From: Pseudomonadota bacterium
GTDB lineage: Bacteria; Pseudomonadota; Alphaproteobacteria; Acetobacterales; Acetobacteraceae
DNA length: 32,241 nucleotides
Direction: 5' to 3'
Assembly (NCBI GenBank): GCA_021826485.1
Contig: JAKAZX010000002.1
Coordinates: 1 to 32,241, forward strand
Shown here: piece after piece, positions 10,574-32,195 of the stretch
Position numbering within the stretch: the stretch's first letter is position 1
Layout: every line of letters begins with the position of its first letter
Position numbers and translations under genes: made by a program
The notes under the pieces: generated by a model
Databases searched by the model: none
What the model saw: only the letters and a program-made list of their open reading frames with translations
Told to the model about the DNA's origin: nothing

Positions 10574-10966
10574 TCAACACTGCCCCCTCTCCGCCCCTGG
10601 GGGCGGAGAGGGCCGGGGTGAGGTGGGGGAACCCGCACAAGCGTCCCGTATTTGCTCCAGCACGCCCGCACAGTTGCCGAGAACCTCGTTGTTCCAGAAC
10701 CGGATCACCCGATAGCCATGCGCCGCGAGCGACGCGGACCGTGCCGCATCGGCGGCCTGCTGCGCTGCGTGCTGCCCGCCGTCAATCTCGATCACCAGCT
10801 TCGCCGCGGGACATGCGAAGTCCGCAATATGTCCACCGATCGGATGCTGCCGGCGAAACCGCCACGGCAGCACCGCTTCGCGCAGCGCGCGCCACAACAG
10901 CCGCTCGGCGTCCGTGCCATCCCTGCGCAGGCGGCGTGCGATCCGTGTCCTCGCCCGCACCGTCAT
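10574..10966 (-). CDS. DUF559 domain-containing protein (Vsr/very-short-patch-repair-like endonuclease fold)
   Basis: 'ARRLRRDGTDAERLLWRALREAVLPWRFRRQHPIGGHIADFACPAAKLVIEIDGGQHA...RVIRFWNNEVLGN'. The last ~20 aa (SPTSPRPSPPPGAERGQC) are encoded by repeat copy 1. Confidence 0.9.
   Translation of the reverse strand: MTVRARTRIARRLRRDGTDAERLLWRALREAVLPWRFRRQHPIGGHIADFACPAAKLVIEIDGGQHAAQQAADAARSASLAAHGYRVIRFWNNEVLGNCAGVLEQIRDACAGSPTSPRPSPPPGAERGQC
10585..10638 (+). repeat. Hairpin+tail repeat copy 1 (hairpin 10585-10612, tail 10613-10638)
   Basis: CCCTCTCCGCCC-CTGG-GGGCGGAGAGGG then CCGGGGTGAGGTGGGGGAACCCGCAC. Confidence 0.92.
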
Positions 10967-10973
10967 CGTCGAT

Positions 10974-11018
10974 CCCCCACCTCACCCCAACCCTCTCCGC
11001 CCCAAGGGGCGGAGAGGG
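10974..11018 (-). repeat. Hairpin+tail repeat copy 2, inverted relative to copy 1 (tail 10974-10990, hairpin 10991-11018)
   Basis: CCCCCACCTCACCCCAA then CCCTCTCCGCCC-CAAG-GGGCGGAGAGGG. Confidence 0.92.
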
Positions 11019-11061: not shown

Positions 11062-11115
11062 CCCTCTCCGCCCTCGGGGGCGGAGAGGGCCGGGGTGAGA
11101 TGGGGGAACCCGCAC
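11062..11115 (+). repeat. Hairpin+tail repeat copy 3, same orientation as copy 1
   Basis: CCCTCTCCGCCC-TCGG-GGGCGGAGAGGG then CCGGGGTGAGATGGGGGAACCCGCAC. Ends 8 bp from the permease stop codon. Confidence 0.92.
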
Positions 11116-23717: not shown

Positions 23718-25235
23718 TCAGGCGTCCCCCACGAAGCGGCGGAGCGCGTCCAGCAGCGCCGGGTCGGTGATCACCCGCGGCACCTTGTTCTGCCCGCCGA
23801 GCTTGCCGCGCGCGCGCATCCAGGCGGCGAAGCTGCCCGGCGGCACCAGCACCACGCGCGGGTCGCGCAGGCCGAACCCGCCCTGGCGGTGCGCCGCGTA
23901 ATCGGCATTCCCCTGCGCCAGCGCCGCGTCCAGCGCGGCGGCGAAGGCCTCATCGGCGTCCGGCGGCGCGCCGTGCAGTTCGGCGATGAACAGGTGCCCG
24001 CCGCGCGGATCGGCGGCGTCCGGCGGCAGCGCGGCGGCGGCATAGTCGGCGGCGCTGCCGCCCACCGCGGCGGCAGCGGCGGCGATGGCGGCGTCCAGTT
24101 CCTCGCCCGTCAGATGCTCGCCCGCGACCGACAGCGACCACGACACCCGGCCGCTGACCTTCAGGCGCGGCGGGTCGCCCCCGAGCAGCGTCACCGTGTC
24201 ACCGAGCACGTAGGACCACAGGCCGGCATTGGTGCTCAGCACGATCGCGTATTCGGTGCCGGGCTCGGCATCGGCGATCCAGCGCCGTTCGGGGAACGGC
24301 CGGCCGAGATCGGCGGGGCGGACGAATTCGTAGAAGATGCCGTTGTCCAGCAGCAGCCGCAGCCCCTCCCCTTCGCCGCGGTCGGCGATCGCGATGAAGC
24401 CCTCGCTGGCCGGATAGACCTCCCGCGTTTCGGCGGCGCTGCCGTCCAGCCACTCGGCGAAGGCGCGGCGATAGGGCGCGAAGCCGACGCCGCCATGCAC
24501 CAGCAGTTCGAGGGCCGGATACAGCGTGGCGAGCCGCGCGCCGGGATGCAGCCGGCCGAGCTGCTCGAAGAACAGCAGCAGCCAGCTCGGCGTGCCGGCG
24601 ATGCTGGTGATGCCGGCGGTGAGCGACAGCGGCGCCAGCGCCGCCGTCTTGCGCTCCCAGTCCTCGGTCAGCGCCAGCGCCGGCGGCGGGAAGGTGCGGC
24701 GGCGCGCCCAGGCCGGGATGTCGGCGGCGGCGATGCCGGACAGGTCGCCGGCGGTGATGCCGGGCGCCAGCCGCTCCAGCGCCGTACTGCCGCCGAGCAG
24801 GAAATTGCGCCCGGCCAGCACCCGGCTGCGCGGCCGGCTGGCGAGGTGGAACACCAGCACGTCCAGCGCCGCCCGCCGGTTGGCGCGCAGCATGGCGCGG
24901 CTGACCGGGATGCGCTTGGTGGCGGCGCCGGTGGTGCCGGAGGTGTTGGCGAAACAGGGGATCACCCCCGGCCAGCTCGCATCGGCAAGGCGCGGGAAGC
25001 TGCCGGCCCACCAGTCGCGCCAGAAATCCTCCCACCGGCGCAGCGGCACGCGCCGCTGATAGGCGGCGACATCGGCGATGCCGGCGAACTCATGCGCCCG
25101 GCCGAAGCGGGTGGCGCGGGCGCGGTGCAGCAGCCGCCGCAGCGTTTCCCGCTGCGCGGCAACCGCGTCCTGGCGCTCCAGCACCGCCAGCCGGCGCCGC
25201 GCATGGACCCGCAGCAGCGGCGTCGCGTCCAGCAT
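23718..25235 (-). CDS. GH3 family protein (acyl-acid amido synthetase-like; 'GH3 auxin-responsive promoter' family)
   Basis: 'VIPCFANTSGTTGAATKRIPVSRAML' nucleotide-binding motif, 'TREVYPASEGFIAI', 'LWSYVLGDTVTLLGGDPPRLKVSGRVSWSLSVAGEHLTGEELDAAI'. Confidence 0.88.
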   Translation of the reverse strand: MLDATPLLRVHARRRLAVLERQDAVAAQRETLRRLLHRARATRFGRAHEFAGIADVAAYQRRVPLRRWEDFWRDWWAGSFPRLADASWPGVIPCFANTSGTTGAATKRIPVSRAMLRANRRAALDVLVFHLASRPRSRVLAGRNFLLGGSTALERLAPGITAGDLSGIAAADIPAWARRRTFPPPALALTEDWERKTAALAPLSLTAGITSIAGTPSWLLLFFEQLGRLHPGARLATLYPALELLVHGGVGFAPYRRAFAEWLDGSAAETREVYPASEGFIAIADRGEGEGLRLLLDNGIFYEFVRPADLGRPFPERRWIADAEPGTEYAIVLSTNAGLWSYVLGDTVTLLGGDPPRLKVSGRVSWSLSVAGEHLTGEELDAAIAAAAAAVGGSAADYAAAALPPDAADPRGGHLFIAELHGAPPDADEAFAAALDAALAQGNADYAAHRQGGFGLRDPRVVLVPPGSFAAWMRARGKLGGQNKVPRVITDPALLDALRRFVGDA

Positions 25236-25238
25236 CGC

Positions 25239-27377
25239 TCAGGCCGGGGCGATCGGCGTGTGGTGCGGCCAGACCTGCGCCGCCGCCGGGGTCAGCGGCA
25301 GCGTGACGTATCCGCCGTCCCGCCACAGCGCCGTCTGGTCGGCGAAGGTCAGGCTGCCCGGCCAGCCGTCCTGCCCGCCCAGCAGCACGACGGCGCTGCT
25401 GTCCGGCATCGCCAGATCGGCGATGAACCGGGCGGAGGCGCCGTAGCTGACCGCGTGCCGCCCGCGCACCGCCGGATGGCCGGTCTTGTTCAGCGTGTCG
25501 TTGCCGCCCGGGGACGGCCAGTCGGCATAGGTGAAGCGCCGCGCCAGCAGCGGCAGCATCCCCAGATGATGGCGCAGCCGCATCCGGTGCGCCTCACCCC
25601 AGGTGCCGTGCCGGCGCAGCGCCCGCCCGGCGGTGCGCAGCGCCGCCGCCAGCAGCGGCCGCAGCGCGTCGTCGGGCATCGCCGCGATGTCCTCGGCCAG
25701 CAGCACCCGCGCGGTCCACACCGCATCCGCCCCGCGCCGCCGGCCGCGCCGGCCGAGCCGTCGGGCGAGGTCGGCCAGCAGCACCTCGAAGGCCAGCGCG
25801 CCGGCGGCACCGGGCGCGTAGTCCCCGCCCCAGCCGCGCAATGCCGCGACCGCCGTGCCGCTCGCCTGCGGGCCGAGGCGGGCGAGCAGCGCATCGCGCA
25901 GCGCCGGCGCGCCCATGGCCACCACGTCGCGCTGCAATTCGGCCAGATCGCCCGCGCCCAGCGTCCCGGTGCCGCCGAGCAACTGGCGCATCCGCTGCAC
26001 CCGGTCGGCGGGGGAGAAGAAGAAGCCGACCGGCAGGTCCCCCGCCGGCGGCCGGTCATTGGCGGAGGCGGCGAAGCCCGCCGCCGGGTCCGGCCAGTGC
26101 GGCAGCTCGCCGGTGCCGACCGGCGCCGTCCAGTGCGCCGCCGCCGCCGGCGACGCGATCAGGTCGGGCGGCGGCCCCGCCGGGCGGCGCGGCAGGTGCG
26201 CGGCCAGCACATGGCCGATCCGCCCGTCCCGCCCGGCATGGAGCATGTTCTGGCCCGGCAGCGCGAACCGCGCGAGGGCGGCGCGGAACTCGCCGCCGTC
26301 GCGCGCCTGCATCACCCCCAGCATGGCGCCCATCTCGTCGCTCGGCCGGTGGCCGATCCAGGCCAGCGCCAGCGGCGCATCGTGGCGCAGCAGCATCCCG
26401 TCGCTGACGATCGGGCCGAGCGGGCAGTCCCGCAGCACGATGCGGCGGGGTGCGGCGCCGCGCACGCGGATCGTCTCCTCCCGCTCGGTGATCGGCAGGC
26501 CGCGCGCATCGAACAGGTCGCTGCTGGCGGCGTGCAGGCTGGTGCCGGCCCAGGCGATATCCCGGTTGCGGCCGATCGCGACGATCGGGAAGCCGGCCGG
26601 CATCAGGCCGCAGACCGCAAAGCCGGGCGAGCGGACGGCGCAGGCGAGCCAGATGTTCGGCAGCCCGACCGACAGATGCGGGTCGGCCGCCAGCAGCGCC
26701 GCGCCGCTCAGGCTGCGCCAGCCGGCGACCGCGGCGGCGTTGCTGCCGGTGCGGGCGAAGGCGGTCACCGCCTGCTCCGCCGCCGCCGCCGGCACCGGCG
26801 GCGCGGCGGTGCCGAGCAGCCGCGGCCACAGCCGCCGCCACTCCTCCGCCGGCAGCGCCGCCCGGCTGCGCAGCAGCCGCGCCCACACCATCCAGTTCAC
26901 GTCCGCCCCTGCCAGCCGCGCGGCGGTGAACAGGTCGGCGAGCGTCCAGGGTTCGGCGCGGATGCCGAGCAGCGCGAATTCCGGCGGCGGCGGGGCGGTC
27001 GCGATCACCGCATTGACCCCGGCGACGAACCCCTCCGCCCAGGTGCGCGTGGCGGGGGCGAGGCCGGCGATGATCTCCGGCACCGCGCGGGCGAAGCCGA
27101 ACAGGCGCAGCGCGCGGTCCAGCTCGATCCCCAGCGGCCCGATCGCCTCCGCCACCCGCCCCTGCGACAGGCGGCGCAGCATCTCCATCTGCGCCAGCCG
27201 CAGATGCGCGTGAACGGCGCCGAGCGCGACCGCGAGATCGGCGTCCGCCGCCGCCTCGATGAACGGGATCTGGTGGGCGTCCCAGTGGATCGCGACCGGC
27301 GCGCCGAGCGGCAGGCGGCGCGGCAGGGCGGCAAGCCGCTCCGCGACATCGCGCGCCGGCGGCCGGGGCAGGCGCAT
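25239..27377 (-). CDS. Penicillin acylase family protein (Ntn hydrolase; AHL/penicillin acylase-like)
   Basis: 'VAIHWDAHQIPFIEAAADADLAVALGAVHAHLRLAQMEMLRRLSQGRVAEAIG', 'FARTGSNAAAVAGWRSLSGAALLAADPHLSVGLPNIWLACAVRSPGFAVCGLMPAGFPIVAIGRNRDIAWAGTSLHAASSDLFD'. Start uncertain. Confidence 0.87.
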   Translation of the reverse strand: MRLPRPPARDVAERLAALPRRLPLGAPVAIHWDAHQIPFIEAAADADLAVALGAVHAHLRLAQMEMLRRLSQGRVAEAIGPLGIELDRALRLFGFARAVPEIIAGLAPATRTWAEGFVAGVNAVIATAPPPPEFALLGIRAEPWTLADLFTAARLAGADVNWMVWARLLRSRAALPAEEWRRLWPRLLGTAAPPVPAAAAEQAVTAFARTGSNAAAVAGWRSLSGAALLAADPHLSVGLPNIWLACAVRSPGFAVCGLMPAGFPIVAIGRNRDIAWAGTSLHAASSDLFDARGLPITEREETIRVRGAAPRRIVLRDCPLGPIVSDGMLLRHDAPLALAWIGHRPSDEMGAMLGVMQARDGGEFRAALARFALPGQNMLHAGRDGRIGHVLAAHLPRRPAGPPPDLIASPAAAAHWTAPVGTGELPHWPDPAAGFAASANDRPPAGDLPVGFFFSPADRVQRMRQLLGGTGTLGAGDLAELQRDVVAMGAPALRDALLARLGPQASGTAVAALRGWGGDYAPGAAGALAFEVLLADLARRLGRRGRRRGADAVWTARVLLAEDIAAMPDDALRPLLAAALRTAGRALRRHGTWGEAHRMRLRHHLGMLPLLARRFTYADWPSPGGNDTLNKTGHPAVRGRHAVSYGASARFIADLAMPDSSAVVLLGGQDGWPGSLTFADQTALWRDGGYVTLPLTPAAAQVWPHHTPIAPA

Positions 27378-27423
27378 TGCCCGCAGCACGAGGCCGAGTG
27401 CGACCCCGGCCCCGCCGACCCGG

Positions 27424-27984
27424 TCACGCAGGCGGCGCAGGGAACAACTCGGCGTAGATGTCGGCAAGCGGCAGGTCCACCCCGATCTCCGGCATCGCGA
27501 GCGTCGCATCCGCGGTCAGCAGGCGGCCGACCCAGTCCGTCCCCGCCCGCTCGAACACGGTCGCGGCGGCCTCGCTCTGCTCCAGCAGCACGTAGCGGCG
27601 GATCGACGGCGTCTCGCCATACTCGCGGGTCTTGGCGATGCGGTCGGTGCGCTGCGTGCCGGGGGAGATGATCTCGAACACCACCACCGGCTCGGCGATG
27701 ATGTCGCTGTCGAGCGCGACCGGCGCGCAGGTGACCAGCGCATCCGGGTAGCGGACGCGGCCGCTGACGATGATCTTGAGATCGCCGCGGAAGGCGCGGC
27801 ACGGCCGGCCGCGCAGTCGTTCGCGCAGCAGTTCCACCAGCCGCGTGCCGATCAGCGAATGCGCCACCGTCCCGCCGGTCATCGCGACCGGCGCGATGCC
27901 GTCAAACTCCCAGCGTGCATCCTGCGCGCGCTCCCACGCCAGGAACGCGTCCAGCGTCATCGGGACCTGTACCGCAGCGCTCAT
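27424..27984 (-). CDS. Uma2 family (DUF820) putative restriction-endonuclease-fold protein
   Basis: 'MTLDAFLAWERAQDARWEFDGIAPVAMTGGTVAHSLIGTRLVELL', 'IIVSGRVRYPDALVTCAP', 'PVVVFEIISPGTQRTDRIAKTREYGETPSIRRYVLLEQ'. Confidence 0.92.
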   Translation of the reverse strand: MSAAVQVPMTLDAFLAWERAQDARWEFDGIAPVAMTGGTVAHSLIGTRLVELLRERLRGRPCRAFRGDLKIIVSGRVRYPDALVTCAPVALDSDIIAEPVVVFEIISPGTQRTDRIAKTREYGETPSIRRYVLLEQSEAAATVFERAGTDWVGRLLTADATLAMPEIGVDLPLADIYAELFPAPPA

Positions 27985-32047: not shown

Positions 32048-32093
32048 CCCTCTCCGCCCCTGGGGGCGGAGAGGGCCGGGGTGAGGTGGGGGA
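32048..32093 (+). repeat. Hairpin+tail repeat copy 4
   Basis: CCCTCTCCGCCC-CTGG-GGGCGGAGAGGG then CCGGGGTGAGGTGGGGGA. Confidence 0.92.
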
Positions 32094-32148
32094 TCAGGCG
32101 ATGCGGGAAGTTACAGTAGCCAACTGCGGATTTTCGCGACACTGGCAC

Positions 32149-32195
32149 CACCCCCACCTCACCCTCACCCTCTCCGCCCCTGGGGGCGGAGAGGG
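32149..32195 (-). repeat. Hairpin+tail repeat copy 5, inverted relative to copy 4
   Basis: CACCCCCACCTCACCCTCA-like tail then CCCTCTCCGCCC-CTGG-GGGCGGAGAGGG. Confidence 0.9.

Follow-up and report, generated by a model that had tools for sequence, protein, structure and literature searches.

DUF559 nuclease genes bracketed by inverted BoxC/PIT/TM-type repeats: candidate small mobile elements

When a small gene encoding a DUF559 protein lies between two inverted hairpin repeats, do gene and repeats form a mobile unit, and is the protein the function that moves it? Both partners are familiar. The repeats resemble BoxC/PIT/TM motifs, recognized since the 1990s, present in hundreds of genomes and linked to genome instability, and DUF559 is a widespread nuclease family that has, to our knowledge, no agreed function.

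The locus, its repeats and its protein

The window (the whole stretch of DNA analyzed) is a complete contig of 32,241 bases (G000:C95) from a genome of 3.97 Mb in 528 contigs, in which no second DUF559 gene was found. The features considered are the following.

10585-11018, no strand assigned: whole DUF559 unit, 434 bp between the outer edges of both hairpins
10574-10966, minus strand: DUF559 gene, 130 aa, open reading frame with a PF04480 profile match
10585-10629, plus strand: left repeat, with a hairpin at 10585-10612 (12-bp stem) and a tail at 10613-10629 toward the gene
10974-11018, minus strand: right repeat, inverted, with a hairpin at 10991-11018 and a tail at 10974-10990 toward the gene
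11062-11106, plus strand: third repeat, without a gene, with a hairpin at 11062-11089 and AACCCGCAC beyond the tail
32048-32195, no strand assigned: gene-less inverted repeat pair, MITE/REPIN-like, 148 bp, with hairpins at 32048-32075 and 32168-32195

A perfect palindrome of 28 bp, CCCTCTCCGCCCNNNNGGGCGGAGAGGG, is present in five copies without any mismatch (10585-10612, 10991-11018, 11062-11089, 32048-32075 and 32168-32195), and its pattern had no match among 100 shuffles of the window. In agreement with the preliminary description, the inverted copies 10585-10629 and 10974-11018 turn their tails (GGGTGAGGTGGGGG) toward each other across the gene, pointing inward at about 10613-10629 and 10974-10990, the same repeat recurs in the window without the gene (hairpins at 11062-11089, 32048-32075 and 32168-32195), and the unit is set among catabolic and transport genes, those of a FAD oxidoreductase, an ABC permease, an ABC ATPase and an NMT1-type binding protein, the DUF559 gene being placed between the genes of the FAD oxidoreductase and of the permease. 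Its statement that the gene lies exactly between the repeats has to be amended: the gene is indeed bracketed by inverted copies, but its stop is at 10574 and its C-terminus runs through the left repeat, which encodes the last ~20 residues (SPTSPRPSPPPGAERGQC). The nonamer AACCCGCAC is common to the 11062-11106 copy and to the left end of the unit, on its inner side; this copy therefore looks like the detached end of that unit and, as far as such likeness can tell, is probably a detached or truncated one. Elsewhere in the window (23721-27509), a GH3-family gene and a penicillin-amidase family gene lie side by side in the same orientation.

The host genome as a whole contains 10 copies of the palindrome, up to two mismatches being allowed, as well as 14 copies of the stem with its tail. 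These copies are mostly arranged as inverted pairs of about 148 bp with a conserved interior (contigs C86, C223 and C402, and positions 32048-32195 of the window). This genome thus carries one gene-bearing unit and several gene-less pairs that have their ends in common. A derivation of the interior of these MITEs from the DUF559 gene by deletion was considered and rejected, no similarity being seen. The locus is not conserved within the host genus: a search for the orthologous site turned up no syntenic locus, and the ABC genes next to the unit have many paralogues. In one congener (G150), DUF559 lies between repeats of a different subtype and in different surroundings.

By its architecture, the window repeat matches the BoxC/PIT/TM intrastrand-triplex motif (PMC4666352), an attribution made on sequence. 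In such motifs, a pyrimidine arm is followed by a loop, a purine arm and, on the 3′ side, a purine-rich tail; this tail is the mirror image of the purine arm, A of the arm being matched by T or A (PMC4666352). The tail of the left repeat is purine-rich (CCGGGGTGAGGTGGGGG, 10613-10629; class II intrastrand-triplex or BoxC type); read as GGGTGAGGTGGG, the tail mirrors the reversed arm GGGAGAGGCGGG along its entire length, all triads being standard (G.GC, A.AT, T.AT) save one T opposite the C interruption. A second version of the stem, in which A-T replaces the G-C interruption, is found in the host genome, and stem and tail covary there: stems with G always have T in the tail and stems with A always have C (12/12 distinct sequences). 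Across DUF559 loci, tails agree more closely with the arm of their own repeat than with swapped ones (114 cases vs 52). It should be emphasized that a parallel (direct-repeat) and a mirrored reading of stem and tail barely differ because the motifs are near-palindromic strings; the triplex reading is therefore based on published work and on two kinds of change, A-to-T and C-to-T/T-to-C. The hairpin is predicted to be stable in DNA (z from -2.3 to -4.4). Triplex formation in solution was reported for an E. coli motif, not for the window sequence, and in vivo footprinting in E. coli detected little stable triplex (PMC4666352), a result that we count against the explanation preferred below. A search for a known RNA family returned only sub-threshold hairpin matches to microRNA models. 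In the flanks of six loci (L060, L063, L116, L118, L126 and L133), a second small hairpin (CGGCGAGCGAAGCGAGCCG- or GGCGCGAAGCGCC-like) separates the stem from the tail, as though, in several subtypes, the second loop of the triplex were perhaps itself structured.

The product of the window gene matches PF04480 (E 4e-37, 126.8 bits, curated cut-off 20.6), and the search for other Pfam domains in the unit gave only a sub-threshold match to the MTES_1575 nuclease. The invariant residues of the family are intact (E21, Q40, D49, E60, D62, R89, F90 and W91), H66 is near-invariant, and the candidate catalytic residues are conserved, catalysis itself being inferred. The AF2 model (pLDDT 84) retrieved with Foldseek a DUF559 structure (3hrl, 6e-6), the catalytic domain of I-Bth0305I (3r3p, 7e-5) and, weakly, 1vsr (0.35), and a profile comparison also led to 3r3p (E 9e-4). 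The protein is thus, according to profile and predicted fold, a Vsr-like PD-(D/E)XK nuclease. Its nearest DUF559 relatives are found in Rhodospirillales; from these and from the related genomes sampled, we infer an alphaproteobacterial host, probably one of the Acetobacteraceae. A search for membership of a defence system (PADLOC) gave weak partial matches only.

Some DUF559 frames (L083, L099, L101, L116 and L131) continue via proline-rich linkers encoded by the repeat into downstream ORFs, up to 918 aa; several of these extensions begin with a VEFEIFEPK-like sequence, and we read these ORFs as natural fusions built through the repeat. A plasmid of Synechocystis sp. B12 (L353) has a DUF559 gene immediately upstream of one for a BREX-type PglX methyltransferase; close to the ends of this DUF559 gene are two triplex-type repeats, in an orientation unlike the usual inward arrangement.

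Association of DUF559 genes with the repeats

The flanks of DUF559 genes were scanned, with a repeat finder independent of the gene, in a first sample of 97 loci; 80 of them, from many phyla, came from a protein similarity search, and the others belong to the host family. Within 300 bp, repeats with their tail toward the gene reach a density of 2.43 per kb; farther than 1 kb away, both strands counted, it falls to 0.08 per kb. At least one such repeat lies within 300 bp at 82 of the 97 loci, and 43 loci have them at either end. The picture was very similar in another sample, 90 loci picked among 349 Pseudomonadota genomes by their Pfam match (74 loci with a facing repeat within 300 bp, 34 with repeats at either end, 2.24 vs 0.12 per kb). 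The density near the gene is thus 18-30 times the distal one in the two samples, and 14-18% of DUF559 loci have no facing repeat under the criteria used. As a control, Vsr genes (PF03852), which encode the same fold and were taken from the same genomes, have a repeat within 500 bp in only one case out of 29 (p 7e-15 for DUF559 vs Vsr loci). The general association that had been put forward only as plausible is therefore borne out, and its named refutation, an absence of enrichment beside the repeat, is ruled out by the same counts. From repeat to repeat, most of the other DUF559 loci measure 395-490 bp, and their inverted identity generally stops at the edge of the hairpin. A general outer terminal inverted repeat was considered and rejected, most loci showing no inverted identity beyond the hairpin. 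Overall, the bracketing of DUF559 by inverted repeats is confirmed across most bacterial groups examined.

Genes and repeats also occur together at the scale of genomes. Among the 349 Pseudomonadota genomes, 106 carry a strong DUF559 match and 243 do not; repeats are present in 89 of the former compared to 29 of the latter (odds ratio 39, p 1.4e-39), with a mean of 34 copies compared to 1.5, about 23 times as many. The search pattern covers only the three commonest repeat subtypes, and these figures are therefore conservative. The p value is inexact, the genomes being related by descent, and contrasts within a genus are a safer test: read by hand, 18 of the 19 informative ones show more copies in the DUF559-positive species. 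These counts include the repeats that flank the gene, and a few low-count contrasts vanish once these are subtracted. In the sample of the host family (at least 102 genera), repeats were found in 16/17 genomes with DUF559 and in 23/133 without. The presence of Vsr has no significant effect among DUF559-negative genomes. The repeats of the 29 DUF559-negative Pseudomonadota genomes could be relics.

The subtype of the repeat follows the protein. Across different genomes, repeat similarity tracks DUF559 protein similarity (156 loci, Mantel r 0.31, maximum of 1000 permutations 0.13). The two repeats that bracket a given DUF559 gene resemble each other more (0.64) than do repeats from separate DUF559 loci of a single genome (0.45), and the repeat of a paralogue is closer to that of the most similar protein from another genome than to that of the sister gene in 42 comparisons vs 17, these comparisons not being independent. 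Part of this cognate pairing reflects vertical inheritance of a linked unit.

Dispersal of the units and the ycjD loci of Enterobacteriaceae

Mobility is documented in the Spirochaetes genome RBG_16_49_21 (G153). It carries two DUF559 units (472 and 480 bp) that share 91% identity over their full length but have unrelated surroundings; outside their hairpins lies a further terminal inverted repeat, CTCGAGTTAGGCGAA. Thirteen inward pairs of CTCGAGTTAGGCGAA were detected: the two DUF559 units, two derivatives of 285 bp, eight MITEs and one pair 3 kb apart that has ordinary genes inside. The derivatives, which arose by internal deletion of the DUF559 unit, are 100% identical at two sites; the MITEs measure 154-189 bp, and two of them are 99.5% identical. 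Direct repeats of 6-7 bp (TAATAA, TTAATTA, TAATTA) flank 6/14 units compared to 16/182 swapped combinations (p 0.002), and no transposase was found inside the 13 terminal-repeat pairs. This genome therefore harbors a family whose only gene is DUF559 and which ranges from a unit that looks autonomous, through deletion derivatives, to MITEs. Dispersal of DUF559 together with its repeats, raised beforehand as one possibility, is thus documented in at least one genome by these units, derivatives and MITEs. Within species, no empty site was found on the Azospirillum megaplasmids, the gene being present in all seven strains that have the region, and no clean empty site was identified in S. meliloti among the matches listed.

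In E. coli K-12, BoxC repeats coexist with a DUF559 gene, ycjD. This gene lies between sapF and fabI in E. coli phylogroups A, B1 and C, and eefRABCD is found there in the others (PMC12817139). The swap between ycjD and eefRABCD (L135, L148, L149) may be a rearrangement associated with BoxC and DUF559. In Enterobacter, Leclercia and Lelliottia, ycjD lies instead beside yggN, downstream of a putative hemW (which we take to be hemW from the gene order of E. coli). At both sites, the 3′ end of ycjD runs into a BoxC repeat, and no repeat was found on its 5′ side at either sapF-fabI or hemW-yggN. Across Enterobacteriaceae, the hemW-yggN interval is empty, contains a BoxC pair alone (L303) or contains ycjD with a BoxC pair, without any base-precise pair of empty and occupied sites. 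At L303, either the gene has been lost or a pair without a gene was inserted in the same position. At hemW-yggN, ycjD looks like a long resident that has been vertically inherited in several genera. Among 59 E. coli records, the median number of BoxC places is 13 with ycjD compared to 3.5 without; this relation is only suggestive, being confounded with phylogroup. An ancestral DUF559 locus beside which repeats were inserted later, the other refutation named beforehand, therefore keeps some support from ycjD in Enterobacteriaceae but is contradicted in general by the congener G150, by the likeness of left and right repeats and by the dispersal in the Spirochaetes genome.

What moves the units

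The association and the mobility of the units are observed, and DUF559 doing the moving is inferred. With a probability of roughly 0.6, we favor the explanation that this repeat family is mobilised by the DUF559 nuclease, whose gene forms with the bracketing repeats a small autonomous mobile element. DUF559 would recognise the repeat, most likely in a folded single-stranded or extruded form in which the purine tail may fold back as a third strand, and would cut at or near it. The freed or copied unit would then be re-inserted, and host repair or replication, rather than a classical strand transfer, would finish the joints. Besides the gene that encodes it, the protein would move, in trans, those gene-less pairs and single repeats that have the same ends, so that the many BoxC/TM repeats of bacterial genomes would be non-autonomous DUF559 derivatives. 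Orientation, cognate left and right subtypes, co-occurrence, dispersal in one genome, intact residues and a predicted nuclease fold are all established. They support the enzyme fold and the product side of this scheme (dispersed units and, in one genome, target duplications); recognition, cleavage with the folded repeat as substrate and joining of the ends are inferred. The mobilising role attributed to DUF559 in the preliminary description is thus the best inference, resting on the association and on the dispersal in the Spirochaetes genome, and remains to be demonstrated. We know of no PD-(D/E)XK enzyme that transposes DNA alone. Also counting against this explanation are the 14-18% of DUF559 loci without a facing repeat, the one-sided repeat and apparent vertical inheritance of ycjD in Enterobacteriaceae, and the 29 repeat-bearing genomes that lack DUF559. 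For the wider proposal that DUF559 mobilises the BoxC/PIT/TM superfamily across phyla, autonomously and in trans, E. coli YcjD included, the evidence appears evenly balanced.

DUF559 could instead follow the repeats without spreading them, as a homing-like parasite: the Vsr-type nuclease would cut gene-less repeat pairs and be copied in by recombination across the repeats. This possibility, which we judge unlikely, draws on the fact that the nearest characterised relative besides the DUF559 structure, by profile and by fold, is the homing endonuclease I-Bth0305I, on the three states of hemW-yggN in Enterobacteriaceae (no repeat, pair only, ycjD with pair) and on gene-less repeats being commoner than gene-bearing ones. 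It leaves unexplained the ~23-fold excess of repeats in DUF559 genomes, as well as the identical 285-bp derivatives and the MITEs with target duplications, and the interior of the gene-less pairs of the host is unrelated to the DUF559 unit. Vsr/EDxHD homing endonucleases (I-Bth0305I, 3r3p) share the fold and offer a precedent for an enzyme spreading its own gene; DUF559 stands alone between repeats, outside any intron or intein, and Vsr genes are devoid of such repeats (1/29).

It is also conceivable, if improbable, that an unlinked transposase (DDE or Y1) moves the units and that DUF559 is its cargo or a helper. In the Spirochaetes genome such a transposase is not excluded because the additional outer inverted repeat and the 6-7 bp target duplications resemble those of DDE elements; moreover, repeats persist in some genomes without DUF559. 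However, the 13 inward pairs of that genome contain no other gene, save the 3-kb pair with its ordinary genes, and the same cargo associated with the same repeat in many phyla, with a subtype that follows the DUF559 protein, is unlike a casual passenger. Holder et al. saw neither transposase nor integrase remnants near these motifs (PMC4666352). As in MITEs and their autonomous transposons, full units, deletion derivatives and short MITEs have common ends, with target duplications in the Spirochaetes genome, but DUF559 units contain no DDE transposase and most genomes lack the further terminal repeat.

A pairing without mobility, in which a Vsr-like repair or surveillance nuclease would have adjacent repeats as co-selected regulatory or target sites, is very unlikely: it can invoke Caulobacter VsrA, a DUF559 protein described as a Vsr-like repair nuclease that sets off a DNA-damage response upon loss of methylation (PMC12907096), and the larger BoxC number of ycjD-positive E. 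coli (n = 59), which follows phylogroup, but predicts neither inverted bracketing with cognate subtypes, nor a uniform length, nor the dispersal of derivatives.

The preferred reading, with DUF559 as the mobiliser, recalls the REP/RAYT system, in which the repeat subtype also follows the enzyme (PMC2817692): a small gene lies between inverted hairpin repeats, with many dispersed copies and MITE/REPIN/BIME-like pairs. The enzymes are different (a Vsr-like PD-(D/E)XK nuclease for DUF559, an HUH/Y1 transposase for RAYT), and the window repeat has a triplex-capable purine tail and no GTAG/GTGG head. Therefore, "REP-like", as the unit had been called, holds for the functional resemblance, a gene between inverted dispersed hairpins, and not for the repeat, which is of the BoxC/PIT/TM kind rather than a GTAG-type REP. 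With BoxC/PIT/TM motifs the window repeat shares the arm-loop-arm-tail architecture, the intergenic position and the frequent inverted pairs; these motifs were described without any gene or mobility function (PMC4666352), whereas here they bracket DUF559. E. coli YcjD and Caulobacter VsrA belong to the same Pfam family, and ycjD ends in a BoxC repeat; in the portions of these studies available to us, both were treated as orphan or repair genes without any note of the repeats (PMC1189080, PMC12907096, PMC12817139). Outside subscription literature, we found no paper linking DUF559 with BoxC/PIT/TM repeats, and an earlier mention remains possible. Each family is known, and their link is new as far as the open literature shows.

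Since ycjD and BoxC occur together in E. coli K-12, the hypothesis is directly testable in this laboratory strain. If it is true, what moves these repeats and what DUF559 proteins are for would have one and the same answer, and DUF559 would represent a new class of enzymes driving the dispersal of repeats.
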